Positions 27,295 to 57,787 of a DNA stretch of 64,000 nt are shown piece by piece. The notes under the pieces were generated by a model, which had not been told where the DNA came from, ran no database searches, and saw only the letters and a list, made by a program, of their open reading frames with translations. The stretch lies in assembly GCF_013410875.1 (NCBI RefSeq), contig NZ_JACCCU010000001.1, forward strand, positions 930,001 to 994,000, read 5' to 3'. Source of the DNA: Tunturiibacter empetritectus (GTDB lineage Bacteria > Acidobacteriota > Terriglobia > Terriglobales > Acidobacteriaceae). Position 1 is the stretch's first letter, and each line of letters begins with the position of its first letter. A program made the translations under genes and the position numbers.

Positions 27295-29535
27295 TTAAGC
27301 CGTCATAATCTTGTCTGGCGTGATCGGGTATTCTCTTATTCTTTTGCCGGTTGCGTTGTAAATAGCGTTCGCGACCGCGGCAGCGGCTCCAGTGATCCCT
27401 ATCTCTCCAATACCGCGTGATCCAATCGGATTGAATTTGACATCCGGAATGTTCAGCACGGTCACGTCCAGCGTTCCTATATCAGCGTTCACTGGAACGT
27501 GATACTCGGCTAACGATTCGTTGACAACGCGCCCGTAGACCGGGTCGACATGGGCCTCCTCACATAGGGCAAAGGACACGCCCCATGTGATGCCACCCAT
27601 TAGTTGATTCAGACCTGTTTTGTCATTGAGCAGCGTCCCGATGTCGTACGTTGCAACAACTCGCCGCACTTTGACCATATAAGTATCTCTATCGACCGCG
27701 ACTTCAGCGAAGACCGCGCCCCACGAGTTTGAAGTCATAGCATCCCTAGACTCTGAGGGTTCGGCAGACCCCGTCGCTTCCACTGGCTTTCCCCCGTTCC
27801 GCGCTATCAGATCAACGAGGCTGTCGGTCTGCGATTGATTTTTCTTGTTGATGAGTTTGCCATCTTTAGCCTCGATGTCTAGCGTCTTAAGTCCATGTAA
27901 TGGAGACCCAGTGTCAGAGATAGCTAAGTCTGCCAGCTTTAATTTCAACTGAGTCGTTGCGTCCTGAATCGCTGGGAGTACAGAAGCCGAAGATTGCGAC
28001 CCTCCGGACACGGGCGCCTTCGGTAGGGTAGAGTCACCAAGCCTTACCTCAACCATTTTGGGGTCGATTCCGAGACCAGCCGCGGCCTGCTGGGCCATGA
28101 TCGTGTAGGTACCGGTGCCGAGATCTTGGGTTCCCGATCCTACAAACATTCTTCCGCCGGAGAGCATCCGCACAACCGCCTGCGCAGCGCTACGATTTGC
28201 CGGATAAGTCGCCGTTGCCATGCCGTACCCAATCAGCGCGTTGCCTTCGGTCTTGGCGCCAGGCGTGATACCTCGTTTTGACCATCCGAAACGTTCCGAC
28301 GCTTGCGTATAACATTCGCGCAGGTGTTTACTTGACCACGGCCGATCGTGGCTCGGATCTTTATCTGCGTAATTCACCAGTCGCAGCTCCACCGGGTCCA
28401 TTTTCAGCTTCTCTGCCAACTCATCCATGGCGATCTCGAGCACCGCAGTTCCAGGTGCCTCGCCCGGCGCACGCATGAAGGTCGAGACTCCGAGATTTAC
28501 CTCCACCACCTTCGCCGTGACCGAGTTTGCTTCGCTCATATAGAGGTTCTTCGTTGGACCTTCGGAGTGTTCGACAAAGTCTTCCATCACCGACGCATTC
28601 ATCACGACATCTTGCTGCATTGCCAACAGCTTTCCATCTGCGCTCGCACCGAGCTTGATCTTATTGACCGTGGAAGGGCGTCCACCTACGGGTCCAAACA
28701 TCTGCTCGCGATCAAGAACAAGCTTTACTGGCTTTCCGGTCACCTTCGCAGCAATGGCGCAAAGCGGAACGTGTGACCACATGGATCCCTTTGATCCAAA
28801 ACCTCCACCCACAACTGGATTCACTACGCGCACATAGTCGAAGGGGACGTTCAGTGTTTTTGCCAAGGACATGCGAACACCAGAGATGTACTGCGTTGCG
28901 TCATAAACATTGAGCTTCTCACCCTCCCACCACGCAATCGTTGCATGTGGTTCCATCGGATTGTGGTGCTGAATCGGGGTGACATAAGTGTTCTCTACAA
29001 TGACTGAGGATTTGGCGAACGCAGCCTGCAAGTCTCCGCGATGATTGCCGGCTGGCTCCTTGCCGGGGTTCTTCGGCCACCTTGCTTCGCTCAGGTTCTC
29101 TATGAAATTCACCCGCGAAACCTTTGATGAATACTTGATCTTCAGCCGGGCGGCTGCCGCCTTAGCTTCGTTCAGCGATCGCGCGACTACAACGGCCACT
29201 GGCTGCCCGTTGTAGTTCACATCGGCGTTCTGCAAAAGACTCAGATTTCTTCTTGCAGGTGGTTGCGGCGGTCCCGGATTCAGCTTCGGCGCGTTGAATG
29301 GTGTCAGAATCGCGATCACCCCGGGAGCTCGATCAGCAGCAACGCGGTCGATCGAAACAATGGTGCCACTTGGAATCGTAGACTGAACGATGTACGCATA
29401 CGTGAGGTCAGCCTTAGAAAACGGCTCCGAAAACTCAGCCGCATACTTTGCTCTCCCTGTTACCTTGGCGATTCCTTCATAACGGTGATCGAGTTGCTTG
29501 ACTGCCTTTGGTGCCGCTTCCGTATCCTGCATCAT
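27295..29535 (-). CDS. paoC: Aldehyde oxidoreductase molybdopterin-binding subunit (PaoC/YagR type)
   Basis: 746 residues of the xanthine-oxidase superfamily large subunit. The N-terminal a/b-hammerhead ([20 protein letters not shown]) is followed by Mo-cofactor domains with [53 protein letters not shown] and [15 protein letters not shown]. Near the C terminus is [20 protein letters not shown], where the Glu of GIGE is the catalytic base. In E. coli PaoABC is a periplasmic aldehyde dehydrogenase carrying molybdopterin cytosine dinucleotide. Its ATG overlaps the stop of the FAD subunit by 4 bp (29532-29535). A dedicated PaoD/XdhC maturation gene is missing beside it. Exact substrate unknown. 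Confidence 0.9.
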
Positions 29536-30557
29536 GCCTGTACTCCCTCGGTGGTGCCCTGAGAGGCAAGTATTAGTGCTCGCACCACACCGCGCTTTGC
29601 CAGTTGAATTTTGAAGGCATTATGCTCGTAGCCGATCGCCCCTTGAAGCAGAATGTCTGCGGCCTGACTGAACGTCTCCGCTCTTGCGGGTTTGCCTACC
29701 AGCACTTTTTCCGCCTCGGCTTTCCGCCAGGGCTTCAATGCAACGCCGCCAAGCGCGAGGCCTGCGGACCGAACGTGATCGCCATCCATCTCCAGCCCCG
29801 CTGCAACGGAGATCAGAGCAAAGGCATAGCTGTTTCGGTCACGAGCCTTCAAATAGTAAGCATTCTTCGCAAACTTAGGTGGCGGCAATGTCACGCCCAC
29901 AATTAACTCGTCTGCACGAAGTGCCGTCTCCACCCAAGGGGTCGTCCCCGGCAGTTTGTGAAATTCGGCAAATGGAATTATGCGTCTTCCTTTTGGCCCC
30001 TCAACCTCCACCTTCGCGTCCAGCGCTGCCATCGCGACGCACATGTCGGAGGGATGAGTCGCGATGCAGCTCTCTCCGCTGGTTGAGCCCTTATCACTCT
30101 GGCCGAGAATTGCGTGAATGCGGTTGTAGCCCTTAATCGCTGCACAACCAGATCCCGGCACACGCTTGTTGCAAGCAGGGAAATTGACATCGTTGAAGTA
30201 ATAGCAGCGAGTCCGCTGCAGCAGATTGCCTCCCGTCGTTGCCATATTGCGTAGTTGAGGAGAAGCGCCACTCAACAGCGCCTGCGAGAGCAACGGATAC
30301 TGACTCTTGATCAATGTATGATCTGCCAAATCGGAGTTTCTCACCAGCGCACCGATTGCTACGCCACCGTCGGCACTCTTGGTCACTTGGGCCAGTTCCA
30401 GATGGTTGATATCCACAAGGGTCGTCGGTGACTCAACTCCGTACTTCATCAGATCGACGAGGTTCGTTCCGCCCGCCAGAAACTTTGCCCCCCGCGCAGA
30501 CCCTGAGCGAATCGCTTTATCCGGTGCTAGTGCTCTCTCATAGCTGAAGGAGTTCAT
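29532..30557 (-). CDS. paoB: Aldehyde oxidoreductase FAD-binding subunit with extra Fe-S motif (PaoB/YagS type)
   Basis: The ATG at 30557 (MNSFSYERA) is preferred; a frame extension to 30617 overlaps the Fe-S gene too far. 341 residues. KFLAGGTNLVDLMKYGV is the FAD-binding motif of the CO-dehydrogenase medium subunit family, followed by ATTGGNLLQRTRCYYFNDVN. The Cys-containing insertion (RTRCYYF, FPACNKRVPGSGCAA) is characteristic of PaoB-type subunits, which bind an additional [4Fe-4S] cluster. The start overlaps the Fe-S subunit stop by 4 bp (30554-30557). It passes electrons from the Mo centre and Fe-S clusters to FAD and on to an acceptor. Confidence 0.9.
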   Translation of the reverse strand: MNSFSYERALAPDKAIRSGSARGAKFLAGGTNLVDLMKYGVESPTTLVDINHLELAQVTKSADGGVAIGALVRNSDLADHTLIKSQYPLLSQALLSGASPQLRNMATTGGNLLQRTRCYYFNDVNFPACNKRVPGSGCAAIKGYNRIHAILGQSDKGSTSGESCIATHPSDMCVAMAALDAKVEVEGPKGRRIIPFAEFHKLPGTTPWVETALRADELIVGVTLPPPKFAKNAYYLKARDRNSYAFALISVAAGLEMDGDHVRSAGLALGGVALKPWRKAEAEKVLVGKPARAETFSQAADILLQGAIGYEHNAFKIQLAKRGVVRALILASQGTTEGVQA

Positions 30558-31270
30558 GCCGACACCCCTCTCGACACTGCACGAACTGCGGCTACGATGT
30601 TTGGATAGGCCCCGCACCGACAGATATTGCCACTCATTCGCTCTCGAATTTCATCGTCTGTCATCTCCGGCTGATCGGTCTTGCCGGTATGAAAACTCAC
30701 GATTGATAAGGCTCCCCGTCTTTGCTCGTCGACTGCGGCCACCGCTGAGCAAATCTGGCCCGGTGTGCAATAGCCGCATTGATAACCGTCATGCTCGAGG
30801 AAAGCCGCCTGCATGGGGTGCAATTCGCTAACATCCTTTGGCTCGGAAGTCTTTGCTAGTCCCTCGATAGTGGTGATCTCGGCACCTTGAGCGGCGAATG
30901 CCAGAGTCAGACAGGAGTTCACGCGGCGGCTATTGATCAGAACCGTACATGCTCCGCACTGTCCATGGTCGCAACCCTTCTTGGTGCCTGTCAGCTCCAT
31001 ATGATCTCGCAGAGCATCGAGCAGCGAAGTACGACTGTCGAGAGAAAGCAGCTGAGATTTACCATTCACTTTCAGTGTCACTGGCAGAGTCGCTGAGGTC
31101 TCGGCAACAGCAATTCCCGGCAATCCAACTGCGACTGCCGCCGAAAGCACGCTTGCCGTCTGCATAAACCGCCGCCGCGTCAGCTCAAACTGCAACCCAT
31201 TATTTTCCAGTTCCCGCTCTTCCTGTTCGCAATCTTCGCGGCTGGGTTCCATACCAAGCAAATCTTTCAT
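30554..31270 (-). CDS. paoA: Aldehyde oxidoreductase [2Fe-2S] subunit, Tat-exported (PaoA/YagT type)
   Basis: 238 residues. A twin-arginine signal (LTRRRFMQTASVLSAAVAVG) about 30 residues in would export the folded complex to the periplasm, as known for E. coli PaoABC. The plant-type ferredoxin cluster is KKGCDHGQCGACTVLINSRR plus a downstream Cys. The second cluster is CGYCTPGQ plus GNICRCGAY. It is the first gene of the paoA-paoB-paoC order on the minus strand, with 4-bp overlaps throughout. The catalase gene lies upstream in the same direction, 279 bp away. Confidence 0.92.
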   Translation of the reverse strand: MKDLLGMEPSREDCEQEERELENNGLQFELTRRRFMQTASVLSAAVAVGLPGIAVAETSATLPVTLKVNGKSQLLSLDSRTSLLDALRDHMELTGTKKGCDHGQCGACTVLINSRRVNSCLTLAFAAQGAEITTIEGLAKTSEPKDVSELHPMQAAFLEHDGYQCGYCTPGQICSAVAAVDEQRRGALSIVSFHTGKTDQPEMTDDEIRERMSGNICRCGAYPNIVAAVRAVSRGVSA

Positions 31271-31549: not shown

Positions 31550-33640
31550 TTAGAAGACCGATCGAACGCTGGGTTCCCGGCTCCAAATTCTTCCTTTGCT
31601 TGCTTTATTCAAATAAGTTTTGTGGTCATCTCCGATGACGACACCGGCATCCCTAACAACGCCTGCAGCGTCAAGGAGCGGCTTCGCAGCAGCTGAGGCA
31701 CCCAAGACCTTTAGATGAACGAACGCATCGTGAACCCAAGCAATAGCAGCGCCCTCGGTAGAAAGCTTCGTTGCGCCTTCCTTCGAAAGCAAAACGTACA
31801 CGGCATCGAAGAGTACTGAAGAGCCACCGGCAAGCTGAAAGTCGGCCTCAATAATAGTTCCGTCCAAGGCGGCGGCGCCTCCTATCTTCGGGGCGACGAT
31901 CTTCAGGTTGGCCCCGGCCACAGTCACAGCTTTTCGTAGAGCGAGCACCGCCCTTGCATCGGAACCGTCCCCCACGAGACAGCCGACTACTTTAGTTTTG
32001 AGTCCCGGTTTCGACTTTTTATGAATGCTGAGTGCATCAGAGGCGGGAAGGTCCGTTCTAGCCGCGACTTTAGCCGGAATTGCTTTCGTTACGCCAAGCA
32101 TACCGAGCCCATTCGCCACCCTCTGCGAAATCTCTGAACTAACATTTGCAAGTTGCCCGAGCATTCTTGTTCTGACTGCTTTGGTTTCCACCTTGCTTAA
32201 TTCGAAGATGAACGCCGATATAATGTGGTTCTGCTCCGGTTCCGTTTGGGAGTTAAAAAACATCAGCGCCTGGGAGAAGTGATCGCTAAAAGATTCGGCT
32301 CGGACACGCAGTTTATCTCCGCTTTTGGAGGCATGGAATGATGTGAATCCGTTCTTCGGGTCTTGACGAGGGGAGTCTGCTTCAAGAGAGCTCGGCGAAT
32401 ACGAAACACGGCCCTTCTGCGGGATCATGGTCATGTGGCCGTCTCGCTGCATGTTGGCCATCGGGCAGCGGGGAGCATTGACGGGAATCTGCTCATAGTT
32501 TGGCCCACCGAGGCGGCTTAGCTGAGTATCGATGTAGGAAAGGTTGCGACCTTGGAGCAGTGGATCGTTCGTGAAGTCGATTCCGGGAACCACGTCGGTG
32601 GTTGCGAAGGCGACCTGCTCCGTCTCTGCGAAGTAGTTGTCGACATTTTGATCCAGTACTAATCGGCCAATGATCTTTAGAGGGAGCGTCTCTTCCGGAA
32701 TGAGTTTGGTCGCGTCAAGTACATCAAACTCGAATTTGTTCGCGAACTCCTCGTCGAAAAGCTGAACACCGAGCTCCCACTCTGGAAAGTTTCCTTCGTT
32801 GATCGCGTTCCACAGATCTCGACGATGGAAGTCAGGGTCGGCGCCCGAAATCTTTAGGGCTTCGTCCCAAATGATCGATGCCATGCCAAGCTTTGGACGC
32901 CAGTGAAATTTCACGTACGTCGAGTCACCAGCTTCATTGACAAGTCGGAAGGTATGCACGCCGAACCCTTCCATCATTCTGAAAGATCGAGGGATTGCGC
33001 GGTCAGACATGATCCACATAAGCATGTGCGTCGATTCGGGAACGAGTGACACGAAGTCCCAAAACGTATCGTGTGCCGTCTGTGCCTGCGGAAATCCGCG
33101 ATCTGGTTCCTGCTTGGCCGCATGGATGAGATCAGTGAACTTTATGGAGTCCTGAATGAAGAAGACAGGGATGTTGTTACCAACGATGTCCCAGTTACCC
33201 TCATCGGTATACATCTTGACGGCAAAGCCTCGAACATCGCGAGCCGTATCCGCTGAGCCCATATTGCCAGCAACAGTCGAAAACCGAGTAAATACCGGAG
33301 TTTTGACTCCAACCTTGGTCAGCACTCGCGCCTTGGTAATCCCGCCTAATGAGTGCGTCAGCTCAAAATAGCCTTTCGCACCGAATCCACGAGCATGAAC
33401 GATGCGCTCGGGAATACGCTCATGGTCGAAGTGCTGAGTCTTCTCAACGAGCAAATGATCTTCAATCAGGACAGGACCACGCTCTCCGAGCTTTAGGGAG
33501 TTTTCATCATCTCCGACTACAAGACCCCGTTGATTTGTTAGTTGAGGATGCGTACCACCTGCAGTTTGATGGAGTTCTCCACCGGCGCCTATTTGATATT
33601 CAGCCCCTAAGTTTTTAGCCGGCTTCTTCGTCTTAGACAT
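31550..33640 (-). CDS. katE: Large-subunit monofunctional catalase (KatE/HPII type)
   Basis: 696 residues, the length of clade-2 catalases with a C-terminal flavodoxin/DJ-1-like domain (the last 150 residues, [20 protein letters not shown]). Catalytic features are visible: [16 protein letters not shown] (distal His), [36 protein letters not shown] (distal Asn) and the proximal heme ligand in [17 protein letters not shown] (Tyr). It dismutates hydrogen peroxide to water and oxygen, usually in the cytoplasm and often in stationary phase. It lies upstream of paoABC in the same orientation and divergent from the PIG-L operon. Confidence 0.95.
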
Positions 33641-33924
33641 ATTTTTTGACCCTTTACGTAATGATTTTTGAACTTACTGCTATACCGGGGTCTGTCCTCG
33701 ACGGTCGTCGGTCTTGCAAGATGGGCGCTGGTATGGCTGCTGGATGTGGGATGCAAAATATGGCAGACATGGAATTTTTGACATTATGAATTTTCACAAA
33801 GTCTGCAGAACTTATCTGTCTACAAATTTCGAATCACAGGAACTTAGACCTATATGGGACGGCATCAGACATTAGGTATCGATGCTGTCTGTCTCTCATT
33901 TCTCCCTCAAGTGGTCCATAGACG
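33641..33924. promoter_or_regulatory. Divergent promoter region between katE and the PIG-L operon
   Basis: 284 bp, AT-richer than its surroundings around 33770-33850, with no credible coding frame. It must hold the promoters of katE (minus) and of the four-gene operon (plus). I see no clear palindrome. Confidence 0.4.
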
Positions 33925-34617
33925 ATGCCGACGATTGTCCCCTTAACTTCAGAAACGAAATGGCTTCCTAAATTACAGCATCTCCCCAATTGGGAGCCAC
34001 CCCTCATTCCGACGCTCGTGCTAGCCCCGCATCCCGATGATGAGACTCTCGGGGCGGGTGGTCTTATCGCCAGACTTTGCCGGCAAGGCGTAACGGTGAT
34101 AGTAGTGGCTGTTACGGATGGAGAGAACGCTTATTCCGACACACAAAATATGGGAGACATTCGAGTGCAGGAACAGGTTGAAGCCCTTCATCGGCTTGGC
34201 GTACCGGAATCCATGGTTCGCCGTCTCTGCCTGCCAGATCGAGATGTGTCGGCCTGCGAGGATCGGCTCGTAGATTTACTTTTGCCGATGATCAAAGGTG
34301 AGATGCACCTAGTCGCCCCGTGGAAACGCGACTTTCATACCGACCATGAGGCAGTTGGAAGAGCGGCAGCTCGAGTCGCCCAAATCAAAAGTGTCCCTCT
34401 TACTTCCTACCTCTTTTGGACATGGCATCGGGGAGTACCCGACATGCTTGAAGGACTATCGGTCGAAAAGGTCTCACTCACAGATGCGGAGCTCCAAATA
34501 AAACGTCATGCCTTGGAGGCTCATGCCTCTCAATTCGAGCATGCTGATGGCCAGCCTATCCTTTCGCCCGAGTTGTTGATGCCCACTCAACGTGCATATG
34601 AGGTCTACATCCGGTGA
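33925..34617 (+). CDS. PIG-L family deacetylase
   Basis: 230 residues. LVLAPHPDDETLGAGGLIAR carries the zinc-binding HPDDE motif (His36 to Glu40). RDFHTDHEAVGRAAA supplies the second HxDH metal site. PIG-L (LmbE-like) enzymes remove acetyl groups from N-acetylglucosamine-containing substrates, such as GlcNAc-PI, mycothiol precursors and some antibiotics. It is the first gene of a four-gene operon, and its stop overlaps the GTG start of a methyltransferase by 4 bp. The substrate is probably a sugar conjugate built by the downstream glycosyltransferase (inference). Confidence 0.92.
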   Translation: MPTIVPLTSETKWLPKLQHLPNWEPPLIPTLVLAPHPDDETLGAGGLIARLCRQGVTVIVVAVTDGENAYSDTQNMGDIRVQEQVEALHRLGVPESMVRRLCLPDRDVSACEDRLVDLLLPMIKGEMHLVAPWKRDFHTDHEAVGRAAARVAQIKSVPLTSYLFWTWHRGVPDMLEGLSVEKVSLTDAELQIKRHALEAHASQFEHADGQPILSPELLMPTQRAYEVYIR

Positions 34618-35198
34618 GTGTCGATACCAAATTCGAGTCGTCTCCTGATTTCTTTGAAGCGAAGTATCGGGAGAATGCTGACCCCTGGGACTTTTCGCGC
34701 AGTGCTTACGAACTAAGACGTTACGATTCAATCATCAATGCAATTTCTCACAGGACCTATCGCCGGGCATTTGAACCGGGTTGTTCCATCGGCGTTCTCA
34801 CAGAACGTCTAGCTGCATACTGTGACGCCGTTGATGCCATCGACTTTTCGCCGTCTGCAAGTATGCAGGCTCAAAGACGATGTGCTCATCTGCCGAATGT
34901 TGAAGTACGTTGCGCAGCGCTACCAGACGGAGTGCCAGTGAAGGATTTTGATCTCCTCGTTTTGAGCGAAATAGGCTATTACTTCTCCCCTCAAACTTGG
35001 CAGCAGATAACCTCCACATTTGTCGATTCGATTCCTCAAGGCGCTACCGTTCTGGCCGCGCATTGGCTAGGCCATTCCCAGGATCATTACATCTCGGGCG
35101 ATGAGGTCCACGAGATTCTGCTTGCCCACCCAGGGCTTCTGGTCGAGCACTCAGAACGCAACCAAAATATGAGACTTGATCGGTTGGTGCGTTTGTGA
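34614..35198 (+). CDS. SAM-dependent methyltransferase (NodS-like)
   Basis: 194 residues from a GTG overlapping the previous stop (GTGA). The N-terminal FEAKYRENADPWDFSRSAYE is shared with NodS-like and related class I methyltransferases. Motif I, FEPGCSIGVLTERLA (residues about 53-67), binds SAM. DLLVLSEIGYYFS is motif IV. NodS N-methylates a deacetylated amino sugar of Nod factor. Here a PIG-L deacetylase precedes it and a glycosyltransferase follows, so N-methylation of a freed amino group is plausible (inference). Confidence 0.9.
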   Translation: MSVDTKFESSPDFFEAKYRENADPWDFSRSAYELRRYDSIINAISHRTYRRAFEPGCSIGVLTERLAAYCDAVDAIDFSPSASMQAQRRCAHLPNVEVRCAALPDGVPVKDFDLLVLSEIGYYFSPQTWQQITSTFVDSIPQGATVLAAHWLGHSQDHYISGDEVHEILLAHPGLLVEHSERNQNMRLDRLVRL

Positions 35199-35905
35199 AA
35201 GCTAATTGGCATATTGCGATCGTCATTCCGGCTCGGGACGAACAAGACCTCCTTCCCAGATGCCTTCGGTCCGTACAAAGGGCTCGTCTGATGCTGCCCT
35301 CGCACGTAACAAGCGACCTGATCGTCGTGACCGACCAGTCAACAGATAATTCCTTCGGCATCGCTCAGGAGATCGTCCAGGAAAGCGGAACAGTCATCGG
35401 GATTGAAGCGGGCTGTGTGGGTACCGCGCGGGCACTAGGTGTGCAGCTGGCGTTAGAGCGCTATGAGGGACCAAGGAAAGTCTGCTGGCTGGCGAATACC
35501 GATGCCGACTGTGAAGTACCTGTCACCTGGCTCCAGGATCAAATGGAGTATGCGAAGACAGGAGTCGCTGCGGTTGCGGGCATTATCGATGTGGACTCCT
35601 TCATCGACCACGACTCCTCCGTCCCGGAGCGATTCCGTCTTTCTTATTTGATCCACCCGGACGGAACTCATCCCCACGTGCATGGAGCCAACTTTGGAGT
35701 GAGAGCGGATGTGTATCTTAAAGCCGGGGGCTGGCAAGATCTTTCAAGCGCAGAAGATCATGATCTGTGGCGGCGTCTGAATGTAGGAATACATCAACGC
35801 ATTTCAGACGCTAGCTTACGTGTCATAACCAGTGGAAGACGGATGGGGCGTGCGCCGCTCGGCTTCGCAGATGCTCTTGCCGCACACAATGGAGTTATAG
35901 GATGA
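35195..35905 (+). CDS. Family 2 glycosyltransferase
   Basis: 236 residues from a GTG overlapping the methyltransferase stop by 4 bp. The GT-A fold N terminus is IAIVIPARDEQDLLPRCLRS, with DLIVVTDQSTDNS. The nucleotide-sugar and metal motif is LANTDADCEVP (Asp103-x-Asp105). HVHGANFGVRADVYLKAGGW and SSAEDHDLWRRL are typical acceptor-site motifs. No membrane helices are evident, so it acts in the cytosol. It probably adds a sugar to the molecule modified by the neighbouring PIG-L deacetylase and methyltransferase. Confidence 0.9.
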   Translation: MKANWHIAIVIPARDEQDLLPRCLRSVQRARLMLPSHVTSDLIVVTDQSTDNSFGIAQEIVQESGTVIGIEAGCVGTARALGVQLALERYEGPRKVCWLANTDADCEVPVTWLQDQMEYAKTGVAAVAGIIDVDSFIDHDSSVPERFRLSYLIHPDGTHPHVHGANFGVRADVYLKAGGWQDLSSAEDHDLWRRLNVGIHQRISDASLRVITSGRRMGRAPLGFADALAAHNGVIG

Positions 35906-36831
35906 CAGCGGACGAACTGAAGTCCCGACTCTCCGACGTGGTTAAGCAGAAGCTGCCACTCCCGGGACGGGGTCATACAGCCGAGCGCCATCATCTGCTG
36001 GCCGAGATAGCGCGAGAGGATCTCAGCTTGGCGAAGCTCGCAGAAGCTCATTGGGATGCGGTGGCTATCCTCGCGGAGGCCGGACGCAGTGCTGAACCTA
36101 ATATGCTCTACGCGGTTTGGGCTTCCGAGATTCCAAATCACATAATTCGCCTAGAGCGAACCGCAGATGGTTTTCACATCAGCGGCGGAAAGCCGTTCTG
36201 CAGTGGGCTCGGAATAGTTGATCGAGCCCTGCTCACCATTGGACTTCCCGACGAGCGCCTCGTCGAGGTAGATTTAAGGAAAAATCCAAACCAGATCAGC
36301 TTGGATCTCGACGTTTGGAAGACGGACGCTTTTCGCAATACACAGACGGGGGCGATCAAATTCATGGAACTGCGGCTGTCACAGGACTCCTTGATTGGAG
36401 ATCCAGGTTGGTATCTTGAGAGACCGGGTTTCTGGCATGGTGCGTGCGGACCTGCGGCGTGCTGGGCAGGCGGCGTTGCGGGGCTATTAGATTTTGCACT
36501 CGCTAGTAAACGTGACGACCCTCATACCTTCGCTCATCTTGGCGCTATGAAGGCTAGTGTCTGGGGTATGTACGCGCTAATCAGGCAGGCAGGCGGGGAG
36601 ATCGATGCAGCACCATTCGATTCGAAGGCTGCACAGAGTCGCGCGTTACAGGTTCGTCATCTGATTGAACAGATGGGCACTAACACGCTCCAACGGTTCT
36701 CTCGAGCGTATGGTCCACATCCATTGTCCATGAACGAAGAGACGTCACGTCGTTATCAGGAAGCAGATCTCTATATGCGCCAATCGCATGGGGAGCGTGA
36801 CTTAGAGTCCTTAGGCCGTCTAATTAGATAA
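35902..36831 (+). CDS. Short acyl-CoA dehydrogenase-like protein
   Basis: 309 residues, shorter than the usual 380. It keeps the middle beta domain (GFHISGGKPFCSGLGIVDRA) and the C-terminal helical domain (GFWHGACGPAACWAGGVAGL), but I cannot find the canonical catalytic Glu motif with confidence. It may oxidise an acyl or amino-sugar-linked group, or have lost activity. Its ATG overlaps the glycosyltransferase stop by 4 bp (35902-35905), so all four genes are coupled. I recall similar PIG-L / methyltransferase / glycosyltransferase / ACAD clusters in other bacteria, whose product I do not know; I could not check this here. Confidence 0.82.
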   Translation: MTADELKSRLSDVVKQKLPLPGRGHTAERHHLLAEIAREDLSLAKLAEAHWDAVAILAEAGRSAEPNMLYAVWASEIPNHIIRLERTADGFHISGGKPFCSGLGIVDRALLTIGLPDERLVEVDLRKNPNQISLDLDVWKTDAFRNTQTGAIKFMELRLSQDSLIGDPGWYLERPGFWHGACGPAACWAGGVAGLLDFALASKRDDPHTFAHLGAMKASVWGMYALIRQAGGEIDAAPFDSKAAQSRALQVRHLIEQMGTNTLQRFSRAYGPHPLSMNEETSRRYQEADLYMRQSHGERDLESLGRLIR

Positions 36832-43581: not shown

Positions 43582-44393
43582 GGCTCTGTTGCATTAACTA
43601 AGGCCGTGTATGGTGAGAGGTGAGTGGAGGAGTCCAGCAGAGGTCTATCTTCAAGCGCCGCCGATTTCCGGTTGAGATCATCCTGGTATGCGTGCGGTGG
43701 TATTGCAAGTACGGCATCACGTATCGCGATCTCGCGGAGATGATGCAAGAGCGCGGAGTTGAGGTCGATGCCTCGACGATCTTCCGGGTGGGTTCAGCGC
43801 TACGCACCTGAGCTCGAAAAGCGCATCCGCTGGTATCAAGGCTACCGCTCGAGCTCTTGGCGAGTGGACGAAACTTATGTCAAGGTCGGTGGACAGTGGA
43901 AGTACTTGTTCCGCGCCGTCGACAAGCATGGCCGTTGATCGACTTCATGCTGCTGGACCGCCGTAACACGTGCGCGGCACACCGCTTCTTGGGCAAGGCA
44001 CTGAAGAAGATGCGTAACTGGCCACCGCACTCGATCACAACCGATAAGCTGGGCTCCTATCCCAAGGCGATTCGCCGGCTGCAGCGCGAAGGCAAGTTGC
44101 CACAGGACACGAAGCACCGCACGTCGAAATATCTAAACAACATCATTGAGGCAGACCACGGTGGCCTTAAGCGGGTGATCCGTCCCACATGCGGTTTTAA
44201 AACGATGAGAACAGCGTCTGCCACCATCAAGGGATTCGAAGTCACGCGGATGATCCGCCGCCGCCATTGCCTCCTCTGCAAGCCCAAGGTCGCCGGCGAA
44301 GTTCAATTCATCAACAAGCTGTTCAATGTTGCCGCCTGATGTGCAACATCGGTAAAAGCGAGTTGCGTGTGTCCCAGTTAATGCAACAGAGCC
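43582..44393 (+). mobile_element. IS6-family insertion sequence, 812 bp
   Basis: Perfect 18-bp terminal inverted repeats: GGCTCTGTTGCATTAACT at 43582-43599, and its reverse complement at 44376-44393. Ends beginning GGCTCTGTTGCA and a length near 800 bp are typical of the IS6/IS26/IS6100 family. The flanking 8-mers differ (GTGTATAG on the left, GACCCTGC on the right), so there is no target duplication. This suggests an adjacent deletion or recombination after insertion. On the right it directly joins the integrase remnant. Confidence 0.9.
43620..44339 (+). pseudogene. IS6-family transposase with two frameshifts
   Basis: The frame starts RRFPVEIILVCVRWYCKYGI and continues to STIFR. One extra G near 43787-43789 then breaks it; the continuing frame reads WVQRYAPELEKRIRWYQGYR and SSSWRVDETYVKVGGQWKYL. 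A second shift near 43930-43935 returns to the first frame at PLIDFMLLDRRNTCAAHRFL. With both shifts corrected the DDE triad is present: Asp in WRVDETYVK, Asp in TTDKLGSYPKA, Glu in NNIIEADHGGLKR. So catalytic residues survive, but the protein as read cannot be made unless there is sequencing error or programmed frameshifting. Confidence 0.85.
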
Positions 44394-44540
44394 GACCCTG
44401 CTGGGGCATACCTCGTCCGGGGTGACGCGGGAGCCTTACATTCACGCGGTCCCCTCGGAGTCGCGAAATGCGGTGGGCCGGATCGAGGAATTGGCGATTG
44501 GACCCAAATGGACCCAAATCGGGCCAGAGGCCAAAAAGCC

Positions 44541-44559
<19 letters not shown>
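44394..44559 (+). pseudogene. C-terminal remnant of a tyrosine recombinase (integrase)
   Basis: In the frame from 44398 to the TGA at 44557-44559 the sequence reads LLGHTSSGVTREPYIHAVPS followed by a basic tail ending [14 protein letters not shown] is the second-His box and the Tyr in PYIH is the catalytic nucleophile of phage-type integrases. The 5' part of the gene is missing, replaced by the IS6-type element. It reads toward, and ends 17 bp before, the 3' end of tRNA-Pro, the expected place for an integrase that uses this tRNA as attachment site. Confidence 0.85.
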
Positions 44560-44652
<93 letters not shown>

Positions 44653-54084: not shown

Positions 54085-54942
54085 TTAGAGGGTGTGCAGG
54101 AACTCTTCGAGGAGGTTGGCGGCAACTGCAGCGCGGTATTTCGCAGTGCTGCGGATGTCATCGATGGGAAGGGTCTCGCTCAGTAAAGCGCTGCGGGCGG
54201 CGGCGATTGTGGCAGGTGTTACGGGCTGATTGAGGAGAGACCGTTCGGTAGCGATGAGGCGGGCAGGAGTCTCGCGCAGGCTTGCGGCTCCGATGCGGAT
54301 GCCTTCGATCACGCCATGGCTCGTGCGGGCGATTGCAGCGATGGCGACCTTGGAGATGGCCTGAGCGTTTCGAGTTCCTACTTTGCGGATGTAGGTCTTG
54401 TAACCGATCAAGTTACGTGAAAGGGTAATGCTGTAGAGGAGCTCATCTGGGGCGAGAGCAGTTTTTTTGTAGCTAAGGTGGAAGTTGCGATAGGGAATTG
54501 TGCGGCTGCCGCGAGTGGAGACGACGGTAACAGCGGCATCGTAGGCCAGAAGCGCAGGTGGAGAGTCGGCGGCAGGGCTGGCGTTGACGATGTTACCGCC
54601 GAGTGTGCCGCGGTTCTGGTTCGCAATCGAGCCGGTCCAGCTGGCGGCCTGCGACAGGAGGGAGAGTTCGCTAGTGATCACAGGATGACTGCGAAGATCT
54701 GTGAAGGTAGCGGCAGCGCCGATGTGGACGGCGTCGGGAGCGACTTCAATGAAGCGAAGCTCTTCGAGATTCCAGAGAGAGATAAGTTTTTTGGGCTGAA
54801 GACGTCCGGCGCCTAACGCTACCATCAACTCGGTACCACCGGCGATGGGCGTGTATCGATCGGGCGAGTCTGCGAGGATCTGAAGGATAGCGTCGAGCGA
54901 TTTTGGGGCGACGAGCTCGTATTGGGTGATGTTGGAGCGCAT
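54085..54942 (-). CDS. Xanthine dehydrogenase family FAD-binding subunit
   Basis: 285 residues. TPIAGGTELMVALGAGRLQP and NQNRGTLGGNIVNASPAADS are the FAD-binding motifs of the medium subunit. No extra Fe-S Cys motif is present, unlike the island PaoB-type subunit. Its start shares one base with the stop of the [2Fe-2S] gene (54942). It accepts electrons from the Fe-S subunit and passes them to NAD or another acceptor. Confidence 0.92.
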   Translation of the reverse strand: MRSNITQYELVAPKSLDAILQILADSPDRYTPIAGGTELMVALGAGRLQPKKLISLWNLEELRFIEVAPDAVHIGAAATFTDLRSHPVITSELSLLSQAASWTGSIANQNRGTLGGNIVNASPAADSPPALLAYDAAVTVVSTRGSRTIPYRNFHLSYKKTALAPDELLYSITLSRNLIGYKTYIRKVGTRNAQAISKVAIAAIARTSHGVIEGIRIGAASLRETPARLIATERSLLNQPVTPATIAAARSALLSETLPIDDIRSTAKYRAAVAANLLEEFLHTL

Positions 54943-55424
54943 TATTCGGCGACCCCGGTCAGAGCCGCGGCCTGCACAGCATTGAAGATACGAATGTAGC
55001 CAGTGCAGCGGCAGAGATTGCCGGAGAGGCCTTCTTGAATTTGTAACAGAGAGGGGTTCTTATATTTTTTGAGCAGGTGATGCGTGGCGAGGATCATGCC
55101 AGGAGTGCAGATGCCGCATTGTGCTCCCCCGTTTTCGAGAAAGCACTGCTGGATGGGGTGAAGCTGTTCGGTGATGGCGACGCCTTCGATAGTGGTAATT
55201 TGTGCCTCATTCGCTTGCAGAATAGGGATGAGGCAGGAGTTGACCAGATCGCCATTCATCAAAATCGAACAGGAGCCGCACTCTCCTTCGCCGCAGCCTT
55301 CTTTTGCTCCGGTGAGGTGAAGGTCTTCGCGGAGAACATCGAGGAGGCGTTTCATGGGCGGCGCTTTTAAAACTTTTGATTCGCCGTTGACAGTGAAGTG
55401 GATTTGGGTCACCAGGTCGCTCAT
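54942..55424 (-). CDS. Xanthine dehydrogenase family [2Fe-2S] subunit
   Basis: 160 residues, cytoplasmic, without a Tat signal. The first cluster is KEGCGEGECGSCSILMNGDL plus a downstream Cys; the second is CGICTPGMI plus GNLCRCTGY. The length is standard for the free-standing small subunit. Its start overlaps the Mo-subunit stop by 4 bp (55421-55424). It is the middle gene of a Mo / Fe-S / FAD operon on the minus strand. Confidence 0.94.
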   Translation of the reverse strand: MSDLVTQIHFTVNGESKVLKAPPMKRLLDVLREDLHLTGAKEGCGEGECGSCSILMNGDLVNSCLIPILQANEAQITTIEGVAITEQLHPIQQCFLENGGAQCGICTPGMILATHHLLKKYKNPSLLQIQEGLSGNLCRCTGYIRIFNAVQAAALTGVAE

Positions 55425-57787
55425 GCGGTGGCCTCGCTGAAGATGGGGCCGGCGGTGGCTGGATCGAAGGATTCACTGCCTGCTTCGGGAGTGCGGGTTA
55501 TCCGCTCGAAGATGTCTTCCGGGAGGAGCGGGATTTCGGTAAAGGCGAGGCCGGTGGCGTGCTCGATAGCGTTGAGGATGGCGGGTGCGGGCCCGTCCAT
55601 GGGGAGCTCGCCGATGCCTTTGGCACCGAAGGCTCCGTGGGGACTTGGGATCTCTTCGAAGGAGACGTGGATGGGCGGGATATCGGCGCTGGTGGGCATG
55701 ATGTAGTTCGTCATCTGGTTGTTGGCGAGATGGCCGTTGTTCCAGATGCATTTTTCGTAGAGCGCATAGCCGATGCCCTGGGCGACTCCGCCTTCGATCT
55801 GCCCCGCAGCGAGAATTGGGTGAAGGACCTTTCCTACTTCCTGGAGGGTGTAGAAGCTGGTCACGCTTGCCGAGTAGGTGGTGGTGTCGACGGCAACTTC
55901 GGCGACGTAGACGGCCCAGGCGTAGGCGGGATAGGCCTCACCTCGATAGTTCTCATCGTCCCAGAAGATGTCGCCGGGGGACTGGTAGCGGGCCTCGGTT
56001 TTGAGGGAGCCGTGTTCTGCGAGGTAGTAGAGCGCCGCGTGGCGGAAGTCTTCAGGGGAGTAGCTGTGAGGTATATCGGAGGTAGCAGCAGATCCCTCCA
56101 CTGCGCTGCGGGATGACAAAAGAGGAGCGAGGGTGGCGAGGAGGGATTGCGCGGCGCGCTCGATGAGTTTGCCGACGACCATGGCTGTGCGGCTAGCTAC
56201 GGTGGGGCCGGAGTTGGGGACGTGCCCGGTGTCGGGTTGGGCGATGAGGATCTGGTCGTAGGGGAGGTGGAGGGTCTGTGCGGCGATCTGGCAGAGGATG
56301 GTGTTGGTGCCCTGGCCAAATTCGGTGGAGGAGACCAGGAGGCGAGGTTGACCTTCGGGTGTGAGCTCAATCTCGACGAGGGAGTTGAGGCGGCGCTCGC
56401 CGGAGCCAGTGAAGCCCGCACCGTGGAAGAAGGTGGCGAAGCCCACTCCGCGCTTGATAGTGCTGGTCGGGTTCTCGCGGTCAAACTGCCCGCGTTTGGC
56501 GTGGTAGCTGGACTCTTCGAGTGCTCGGGTGAGCAGGTGCTGCATATCGACGGGGTCTTTGAGGAGCTGGCCGGTTGCGGTGTGGCCGCCTGTGCCTAGG
56601 AAGTTGCGGCGGCGGAGCTCTTCCGGTGTGAGTCCGACCACCTTTGCAATCTTGTCCATGTGGCGTTCGAGGGCGAAGATGCTTTGCGGCGCGCCGAAGC
56701 CGCGGAAGGCTCCGTGGGGCGGAATATTTGTTGCCATTGCTTTGGCGCGGACGGTGAGGTGGGGCCAGTGGTAGGGGCCGGGGGCGTGGATGGTGCCGCG
56801 GGAGAGGACTACGGGGGAGAGGGTGGCGTAGGCTCCGCCGTCGAGGGCGAAGTCTATCTCGCCGGCGAGGAGCTTGCCGTCTTTGCTGACGGCGGTGCGG
56901 TGGCGGGTGCGGCTGGGGTGGCGCTTGGTGGTGGCGGCCATGTCTTCGGCGCGGTCGTAGCAGAGCTTGACGGGGTGGCCTGACTTCATGGCGAGGAGAG
57001 CGGCATGGCTGCCGATGACGGAGGGGAAGTCCTCCTTGCCGCCGAAGGCACCGCCGGTCTCGGTCTGGATGACTCGGCACTTCTCGGCGGGGAGGTTGAA
57101 GACCAGCTCCAGGGCGTGGACGAGGTAGTACGGGCACTGCATCGAGCCTCTTACGGTCACTCCCTTTTCCGGGTCGTACTCGGCGATGACTCCATTGTTT
57201 TCGATGTAGAGCTGCTCCTGGGCTCCAGCGCGGTACTCGCCTTCGACGATGTAGTCGGCGGTCTGCCAGATCTCGTCGGGGATCGGCTTCAGGTCCTTCT
57301 GCATGAGGTAGGTCTTGAAGGTGTTGGCGTGTTCGCCTTCTCCCCAGATGACTTGCTCTTTTTTTTCGGAGTCTTCGATGGAGTAGATGGCCGGGAGTTC
57401 TTCGTAGGTGATGTGGACCGCGGCTACGGCGGCGGGGAGTGCGGAGCGGTTGGGGTGGGCGAGGAGGAAGATGGGCTCTTCGGCGTGGTTGACGTGGGAG
57501 ATGGCGAGGCAGGGGTGGTCTTTGGTGAGGTGGACGATGCAGTTTTCGCCGGGGATGTCGGCGGCGGAGACGATGGTGTATTCGTTCCAGGGGATGGCGG
57601 GGTCGAAGGCGATGGAGGTGATGCGGCCGCGGGGGATGGTGCTGCGGACGGTGGCTCCGAACCACATGCCGGGGAGGCTTATGTCGTCGACGTAGAGTGC
57701 ACGGCCCAAGACCTTGGCTGTTCCTTCCTTACGGATGGGGGAGCTGCCAACGATCTGGAGCTGGCTGGTCATGGAAAGGTGTTGCAT
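55421..57787 (-). CDS. Xanthine dehydrogenase family molybdopterin-binding subunit
   Basis: 788 residues (783 if ATG 57772 is used; neither has a ribosome-binding site). The N-terminal hammerhead is RKEGTAKVLGRALYVDDISL. Mo-binding motifs are TETGGAFGGKEDFPSVIGSH, PPHGAFRGFGAPQSIFALER, SSTEFGQGTNTILCQIAAQT and GPTVASRTAMVVG. The catalytic Glu is in FGAKGIGELPMDGPAPAILN. Substrate is unclear; the Arg in GAFRGFGAPQ is as in purine- or aromatic-oxidising members. A REP-like sequence is inserted in frame near residues 556-567 (SSRSAVEGSAA). It is the first gene of its operon, with its dedicated maturation genes on the facing strand. Confidence 0.92.
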   Translation of the reverse strand: MQHLSMTSQLQIVGSSPIRKEGTAKVLGRALYVDDISLPGMWFGATVRSTIPRGRITSIAFDPAIPWNEYTIVSAADIPGENCIVHLTKDHPCLAISHVNHAEEPIFLLAHPNRSALPAAVAAVHITYEELPAIYSIEDSEKKEQVIWGEGEHANTFKTYLMQKDLKPIPDEIWQTADYIVEGEYRAGAQEQLYIENNGVIAEYDPEKGVTVRGSMQCPYYLVHALELVFNLPAEKCRVIQTETGGAFGGKEDFPSVIGSHAALLAMKSGHPVKLCYDRAEDMAATTKRHPSRTRHRTAVSKDGKLLAGEIDFALDGGAYATLSPVVLSRGTIHAPGPYHWPHLTVRAKAMATNIPPHGAFRGFGAPQSIFALERHMDKIAKVVGLTPEELRRRNFLGTGGHTATGQLLKDPVDMQHLLTRALEESSYHAKRGQFDRENPTSTIKRGVGFATFFHGAGFTGSGERRLNSLVEIELTPEGQPRLLVSSTEFGQGTNTILCQIAAQTLHLPYDQILIAQPDTGHVPNSGPTVASRTAMVVGKLIERAAQSLLATLAPLLSSRSAVEGSAATSDIPHSYSPEDFRHAALYYLAEHGSLKTEARYQSPGDIFWDDENYRGEAYPAYAWAVYVAEVAVDTTTYSASVTSFYTLQEVGKVLHPILAAGQIEGGVAQGIGYALYEKCIWNNGHLANNQMTNYIMPTSADIPPIHVSFEEIPSPHGAFGAKGIGELPMDGPAPAILNAIEHATGLAFTEIPLLPEDIFERITRTPEAGSESFDPATAGPIFSEATA
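56087..56120. repeat. REP-like element inside the Mo-subunit gene
   Basis: The plus strand reads AGCAGATCCCTCCACTGCGC then TGCGGGATGACAAA. This matches the dispersed motif seen at 61946-61974 (AGCAGATCCCC...GGGATGACAA), and in looser form at 58791 and 63972. Here it is translated in frame on the minus strand as SSRSAVEGSAA, without a stop. Confidence 0.65.

Follow-up and report, generated by a model that had tools for sequence, protein, structure and literature searches.

Here we describe a four-gene operon in a 64,000-nucleotide stretch of the Tunturiibacter empetritectus genome (contig NZ_JACCCU010000001.1, positions 930,001 to 994,000; hereafter the window), which encodes a PIG-L deacetylase (PIGL), a NodS-like methyltransferase (MT), a small GT2 glycosyltransferase (GT) and a flavoprotein of the acyl-CoA-dehydrogenase fold (ACAD). 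On balance, we lean towards reading this cassette as one movable biosynthetic unit for a soluble amino-sugar conjugate made in the response to desiccation and oxidative stress, and our confidence in the detailed chemistry proposed below is far lower than in this general reading. An original prediction, made from the sequence of the window, had anticipated both the unity of the pathway and its stress setting; it had also held equal production of the four proteins to be likely, named ACAD as acyl-CoA-dehydrogenase-like and drawn an analogy with NodS and mycothiol-type chemistry, whereas equal production, a true acyl-CoA dehydrogenase and kinship to true NodS, bacillithiol or mycothiol were not supported.

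The grouping of the four genes is beyond chance. A tblastn search of plasmids with ACAD gave 48 records, from which 10 loci were picked by hand, and a 14-protein alignment, searched against a set of genomes with one for each species, gave at least 596 pattern matches and at least 510 confirmed relatives. The 90 loci analysed here are the 10 plasmid loci and the best 80 of the at least 510 relatives; genes were located in them by custom profile models and counted as chained when on the same strand with gaps below 600 bp. All four genes are chained in 67 of the 90, a rate that is biased by the selection of every locus through its ACAD match and that counts near-duplicate plasmids (e.g., L021 and L026) as separate loci; small ACAD fragments (L013-L016) were excluded from later counts. 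These 67 loci, which include Acidobacteriota, Pseudomonadota, Actinomycetota and one myxobacterial metagenome-assembled genome (MAG), bear out the proposal of one pathway in place of four separate ones; the original prediction would have fallen if the families did not occur together elsewhere, and they do. Three gene orders dominate, ACAD-PIGL-MT-GT (36 loci), GT-ACAD-PIGL-MT (20) and the order of the window, PIGL-MT-GT-ACAD (9; acidobacteria, Legionella and Aquihabitans), and these are cyclic permutations of each other; ACAD-PIGL-MT-GT-PIGL and GT-PIGL-ACAD-MT occur once each. As for the vehicle, phage carriage was rejected, with just 2 of 50,697 phage records matching, both from Acinetobacter, of 232 and 306 kb and perhaps mis-filed.

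Closer to the window, a sample of 61 genomes (its own and 60 relatives) holds MT in 13 (E 1e-10) and ACAD in 12 (E 1e-3), with 11 genomes carrying both, all belonging to one genus, and within this genus ACAD and MT almost always co-occur. GT matches above 250 bits fall in precisely those seven genomes whose cassette is unfused. Furthermore, ACAD and MT are fused in four genomes of the genus (L107-L110), where a GT2 gene on the opposite strand and a PIG-L gene lie next to the fusion in every case; in L107, L109 and L110 this PIG-L carries the motif SPHRDD, and the next gene encodes a fusion of a glycosyltransferase with UDP-galactopyranose mutase. PIGL and MT, in turn, share a single frame in Nesterenkonia (L053). 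Elsewhere in the sample, PIGL is cut by a contig end in G020, and G036, a genome that gave no MT match, has only a truncated ACAD frame beside katE (L111, 9254-9685), which is probably what is left of a cassette after decay. Among 199 genomes of the phylum, including the window's own, MT is matched at E 1e-25 in at least 6, a lower bound from 17 scored candidates per genome. Across 66 loci, the matrices of protein distance are correlated between the four families, with r of 0.83-0.89, a level reached by 0 of 500 permutations for each pair; this shows shared descent, not function.

The deacetylase belongs to PIG-L (for which LmbE is an older name), matching PF02585 at E 1.8e-22 and 80.6 bits, above the gathering cut-off of 28.2. 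The window protein keeps the motifs H36-P-D-D-E and H138-x-D140-H141, and H36, P37, D38, D39, H138, D140 and H141 are invariant across 42 PIGL sequences; by comparison with MshB, these are presumably the metal and catalytic residues. Searched against the PDB, the PIGL profile falls nearest to diacetylchitobiose deacetylases (E 3e-23), followed by entries for TT1542, BshB and MshB. With MshB, BshB1 and diacetylchitobiose deacetylase it has the family and the HPDD...H motif in common, and models of BshB1 and BshB2 are indeed matched at E 1e-5 or better by 42 of 42 PIGL members. Together with the stress setting, this would suit a low-molecular-weight thiol pathway like that of bacillithiol or mycothiol, or a set for thiol-conjugate detoxification. 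However, the window protein scores far below the NCBIfam equivalog cut-offs (59.7 against 182.5 bits for BshB1, 44.8 against 195.25 for BshB2 and 38.7 against 224.35 for MshB) and lies in a different operon, and the genome encodes a separate BshB1 above cut-off (223.5 bits) as well as BshC on another contig, and on these grounds the bacillithiol and mycothiol pathways were rejected. The annotated neighbours read do not include a cysteine ligase, and we regard a thiol role, and with it the mycothiol-type kinship once proposed, as the least probable of the readings considered. As a separate observation, four Pseudomonas loci (L066, L077, L093 and L101) carry a second PIG-L gene in the cassette, with treY near all four and a chain lacking GT2 in three of them.

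Similarly, MT matches the Pfam NodS family (PF05401; E 3.6e-14, 53.5 bits, cut-off 24), and 44 of 44 family members scanned match the NodS model NF041650 at E 1e-5 or better; the window protein nevertheless reaches 59.4 bits against a cut-off of 300 for that model, which rules out a true NodS. The MT profile matches 4isc, an entry named just 'Methyltransferase', over its full length (E 6e-66), then NodS itself (3ofj/3ofk, E 2e-27), and the next match stands at 1.6e-14. Among solved structures of known function, MT is thus nearest to NodS and PIGL to diacetylchitobiose deacetylase. GT matches Glycos_transf_2 (PF00535; E 1e-14, 55.2 bits, cut-off 23.3) and keeps the TDAD and ED motifs, with D103, D105, E187 and D188 invariant in 41 sequences; its predicted model (mean predicted local distance difference test, pLDDT, of 95.7) is one compact domain whose structural matches are of GT-A type. 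By family, then, the cassette has three reaction types in common with the NodC-NodB-NodS core of Nod-factor synthesis (GT2, sugar deacetylase and NodS-like methyltransferase), and we rate it as a small biosynthetic operon of NodC-NodB-NodS-like logic; the amino-sugar chemistry of the original prediction is supported in this outline. The window differs from the Nod-factor core in its low-scoring MT, in a deacetylase that is PIG-L and not CE4, in a short GT2 and in the added flavoprotein. In the plasmid loci read, no annotated neighbour bears a NodA- or NodC-type name, whole genomes not having been searched for these genes.

The fourth protein gave no match in a Pfam scan at E 0.01 and a weak one to NCBIfam SfnB (27.9 bits against a cut-off of 430.9), and its fold was assigned from an AlphaFold model (pLDDT 96.5). 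This model has the acyl-CoA-dehydrogenase fold, with Z of about 28-30 and a root-mean-square deviation of 2.2-2.8 over about 300 residues to many structures of that class. Dehydrogenases, the monooxygenases TdsC/DszC and MsuC and the nitrososynthase KijD3 are near-tied as matches (TdsC at Z 29.5, KijD3 at Z 28.3); Foldseek E-values rank monooxygenases first, and profile matches include TdsC, DszC, the nitrososynthase 3mxl and DnmZ. Likeness of fold and profile therefore extends to flavin monooxygenases and amino-sugar nitrososynthases, from which ACAD differs in its shorter N-terminus, and ordinary dehydrogenases fit the fold equally well. In a MAFFT alignment that includes four dehydrogenases (with IYEG or IGEG at the C-terminal YEG-type motif), the catalytic-Glu column holds Gln in 11 of 12 proteins of type A and 9 of 9 of type B, 20 of the 21 of cassette type; the column is not beyond doubt because profile-profile alignment places a gap at this position. 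The sole exception, with Glu, is L039, whose chain holds no other cassette gene; in a wider alignment, Gln294 is present in 47 of 48. A K-x-x-x-S/T-G stretch is largely kept (K97 in 44 of 48, S101 in 46 and G102 in all 48), aligned to a stretch that in dehydrogenases presumably lies near the flavin. Proteins of type A lack some 20-40 N-terminal residues present in most of type B and also lack an inner stretch. Pseudomonas matches to the SfnB model, sought as monooxygenase references, included none above the SfnB cut-off, and those aligned bear dehydrogenase-type motifs (IYEG, IGEG, IGAG or ILTG). From sequence and model, ACAD is probably a flavoenzyme other than a standard acyl-CoA dehydrogenase; the substitution of Gln for Glu makes an ordinary fatty-acid enzyme unlikely, and of the label acyl-CoA-dehydrogenase-like the fold holds, and a true dehydrogenase is not supported. 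The flavoprotein annotated in Deinococcus gobiensis (L143, 5564-7909) is extended at its N-terminus by about 400 residues that match no Pfam family.

Put together, these families suggest a route in which GT would move N-acetylhexosamine, or a similar N-acylated sugar, from a nucleotide sugar onto a small acceptor, PIGL would strip the N-acetyl group from the conjugate, MT would methylate the freed amine with S-adenosylmethionine as donor, and ACAD would oxidise the product, flavin/O2 chemistry at or beside the nitrogen being likelier than acyl-CoA dehydrogenation. The best candidate for the acceptor, though an unproven one, is trehalose or one of its precursors, favoured only by gene neighbourhood in 13 of the 90 loci. 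In its fullest form, the proposal is of an undescribed stress metabolite of several phyla, an N-methylated, flavin-oxidised amino-sugar conjugate, perhaps linked to trehalose, which would act with trehalose and catalase against drying and would turn NodC-NodB-NodS logic to protection rather than symbiosis; we offer this tentatively, at somewhat less than an even chance.

A second, diverged form of the cassette lies on plasmids of Deinococcus and alphaproteobacteria. A tblastn search with the fused ACAD-MT protein returned 175 plasmid records, the best 30 of which include Deinococcus, Nostoc, Methylobacterium, Roseomonas, Novosphingobium, Sphingobium, Bradyrhizobium, Komagataeibacter, Rubrobacter, Paracoccus and Sulfitobacter; the Nostoc and Methylobacterium records are unannotated, and seven second-form loci were read. 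Models of type A recognise this form at lower scores. ACAD-PIGL-MT with a GT2 is found in Deinococcus gobiensis (L143), Sphingobium (L145), Bradyrhizobium (L146), Sulfitobacter (L147) and Komagataeibacter (L149), and ACAD-PIGL-MT with no GT2 within the stretch read in Roseomonas (L144); glf and another glycosyltransferase adjoin the cassette in Deinococcus gobiensis, and a ligase, Ku and LigD lie near it in Bradyrhizobium. Rubrobacter (L148) presents a different arrangement, with a CE4 polysaccharide deacetylase (PF01522, E 3.6e-26) directly before ACAD-MT-oxidoreductase-GT2 and, over the 15.4 kb covered, nothing that matches PIG-L. CE4 is the class of NodB and a further point of contact with the Nod-factor core; its presence in the place of PIG-L suggests that the step is removal of acetyl from a sugar. 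A tblastn search for further CE4-type cassettes among the collected loci found none besides the one in Rubrobacter.

Because the second form lies beside glf, a different product has to be kept in view: the cassette may tailor an envelope glycan or glycolipid, placing an N-methylated amino sugar on lipopolysaccharide, capsule or glycolipid as a defence against drying. The adjoining UDP-galactopyranose mutase and glycosyltransferases, or a position among several glycosyltransferases, would fit such a role, as would the action of NodS and CE4 enzymes on oligosaccharides known for these families. Yet the annotated neighbours read show no recurring gene for a flippase, a polymerase, a lipid-carrier transferase or export, and membrane helices are unlikely in a GT of 236 residues that forms a single compact domain. 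We consider an envelope product unlikely, and favour a soluble solute because the annotated loci read lack recurring membrane or export genes.

The stress setting beside katE was likewise supported by the neighbours of the cassette, counted by tblastn because the gene caller was crude, with 24 queries taken from the same 90 loci. Endonuclease/exonuclease/phosphatase (EEP) nuclease and SDR genes are each near 24 loci, katE near 19, zinc-dependent alcohol dehydrogenase near 12, LigD, TopIB and a NAD-binding protein near 11 each, Ku near 9 and an iron-containing redox enzyme near 8; among trehalose genes, otsB is near 7, otsA near 6 and treY near 4. SDR, zinc-dependent alcohol dehydrogenase and EEP nuclease are large families whose counts have little meaning. 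At least one of the trehalose set, katE, LigD, Ku, TopIB, DUF421 and a ferritin-like or iron redox gene is near 46 loci, and none is near the other 44. Some arrangements are close: otsA-ACAD-PIGL-MT-GT-otsB forms a single run on two Comamonas plasmids, otsB-otsA lies just upstream of ACAD in a Delftia MAG (L096), and otsB and a GH65 gene come just before a cassette of the window's order in Legionella lytica. Two mycobacterial loci bear on the nuclease: an EEP family gene directly follows MT in L038 (12367-13122) and occupies the expected place of MT in L056 (11777-12538).

Catalase takes several positions. The katE gene and the cassette point away from each other in the window and in L027, L028, L029 and L150 (same species), and in L112 katE is just upstream on the same strand; a five-sequence alignment between katE and the operon showed general similarity with no single convincing regulatory site, L150 being practically identical to the window. 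In L037, katE sits between cassette genes, in L041 its match and that of ACAD overlap where the latter starts, and in Sulfitobacter (L147) a catalase directly follows the cassette on the same strand. Such placements would agree with an ACAD that finishes the product as an H2O2-making oxidase, the linked catalase clearing the H2O2, so that the katE link would be enzymatic and not regulatory alone; family knowledge also places O2-using enzymes among the ACAD-fold proteins without the dehydrogenase Glu. Catalase is near just 19 of the 90 loci, however, and an oxidase activity of ACAD is hypothetical. We think this improbable, and it is in any case an addition to the preferred reading of a soluble amino-sugar conjugate rather than a full alternative to it.

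Published data offer a further view of the cassette. Table 2 of PMC5660220 lists Acinetobacter baumannii ACICU_02432-02435, annotated as a glycosyltransferase, a SAM-dependent methyltransferase, an LmbE protein and an acyl-CoA dehydrogenase-related protein, as one operon, down 31-62-fold in two colistin-dependent mutants. In the same mutants, otsA/otsB are down 12-50-fold and the catalase ACICU_01426 22- and 31-fold (PMC5660220); these data show co-regulation with otsAB and catalase, not induction by drying. A passage of PMC6240043 names the A. baumannii genes in passing as neighbours of the BLUF photoreceptor gene blsA. Both reports were equated with L024, itself unannotated, by gene order and annotation alone; the four annotations are the same as in the window and stand in the gene order of L024, which differs from that of the window. 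A BLUF photoreceptor gene also stands some 6 kb away from the second-form cassette of Bradyrhizobium (L146, 589-1020), and with blsA this makes light control conceivable. No function is given for the gene run in the section of PMC5660220 or the passage of PMC6240043 concerned, and no PIG-L gene is named in the passages of PMC12029717 or PMC6599016. An open-access full-text search, whose coverage leaves subscription journals outside, recognised no function assigned to the cassette, in keeping with the original prediction that its product is undescribed. The four families and their database names are known singly; for the cassette as a system, the fusions, the deacetylase exchange and the product we found no description.

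Several observations weigh against a single stress-related pathway with a soluble product. In 23 of the 90 loci the chain lacks at least one gene (5 with ACAD alone, 18 with two or three families). At E 1e-15, matches to the GT model occur in 26 of the 61 genomes, so that GT alone is not specific to the cassette, and MT occurs without the other three genes in G018 and G027, on contigs of 10.8 and 10.2 kb, where the match is partial in the former and about 480 bases from the contig end in the latter. Perhaps, then, the genes serve separate processes and are neighbours merely since stress islands gather stress genes, as the variation of katE, ots, Ku, LigD and TopIB between loci would also allow. 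We hold this to be very improbable given four genes adjacent in 67 of 90 loci, where no other gene of the island is near more than 24, and given the fusions and the joint presence and absence within the genus. On the stress setting, the neighbour counts come without a background rate; katE (searched with an Acinetobacter homologue) and trehalose-related genes (otsA, otsB, treY, glgE or GH65, in 13 loci) are near minorities of the 90, shared regulation explains the stress neighbours as well as shared chemistry does, and the A. baumannii operon is one among 33 down-regulated entries from colistin-dependent mutants rather than from a stress experiment (PMC5660220). On the chemistry, the analysis shows the gene unit with its joint inheritance and fusions, conserved motifs in PIGL, GT and MT, the Gln for Glu of ACAD and the stress neighbourhood, and from these we infer the substrates, the order of steps, the product and the physiological role; the reaction of ACAD is a guess while dehydrogenases and monooxygenases tie in fold Z; no transporter or gene for N-acyl-sugar supply is constant across loci; and the CE4 replacement is a single case. 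Finally, the GT2 and PIG-L of the second form are diverged and have UDP-galactopyranose mutase and extra glycosyltransferases as neighbours, and acceptors and products there may differ or be larger glycans.

Trehalose, catalase, protective proteins and DNA repair are the usual explanations for how bacteria of soil, plants and hospitals, and radiation-resistant ones, survive drying and oxidative stress. If the preferred reading of one pathway to a soluble amino-sugar conjugate is true, a missing metabolite would join this list, made by a four-enzyme pathway that often lies near those very genes and that ranges over Acidobacteriota, Pseudomonadota, Actinomycetota, Deinococcota and a myxobacterial MAG.

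Table 1. The operon and its neighbour katE, in positions of the window
Feature	Position	Strand	Basis
katE, monofunctional catalase, 696 aa; linked gene, outside the enzyme set	31550..33640	-	named by sequence
Region separating katE from the operon, 284 bp, divergent transcription outward	33641..33924	.	sequence
PIGL, PIG-L family N-deacetylase, first gene	33925..34617	+	open reading frame, 230 aa, ATG start; Pfam
MT, NodS-like SAM methyltransferase	34614..35198	+	open reading frame, 194 aa, GTG start; Pfam
GT, small GT2 glycosyltransferase	35195..35905	+	open reading frame, 236 aa, GTG start; Pfam
ACAD, acyl-CoA-dehydrogenase-fold flavoprotein, short N-terminus, Gln294	35902..36831	+	open reading frame, 309 aa, ATG; predicted structure

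The layout of the operon in the window (Table 1) is as predicted, with reading frames in place and 4-bp overlaps at all three junctions (GTGA, GTGA and ATGA). Stoichiometric production had been judged likely from these overlaps. Overlaps of 4 bp are ordinary in bacterial operons, and in relatives the same genes overlap by other lengths or are separated by small gaps (the annotation gives overlaps of 11, 8 and 20 bp in L017 and of 13, 8 and 4 bp in L021); nothing therefore follows on equal protein amounts.

Around the operon, GC content is mostly lower at about 14-44 kb of the window than outside, and a short frame that looks transposase-like by sequence (43857-44652) adjoins tRNA-Pro(cgg). Given the lower GC, an island may end at this tRNA gene. 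The window also holds two three-subunit sets resembling molybdenum hydroxylases of the xanthine dehydrogenase type, as judged by eye (27295-31270 and 54085-57787), one of which adjoins katE.

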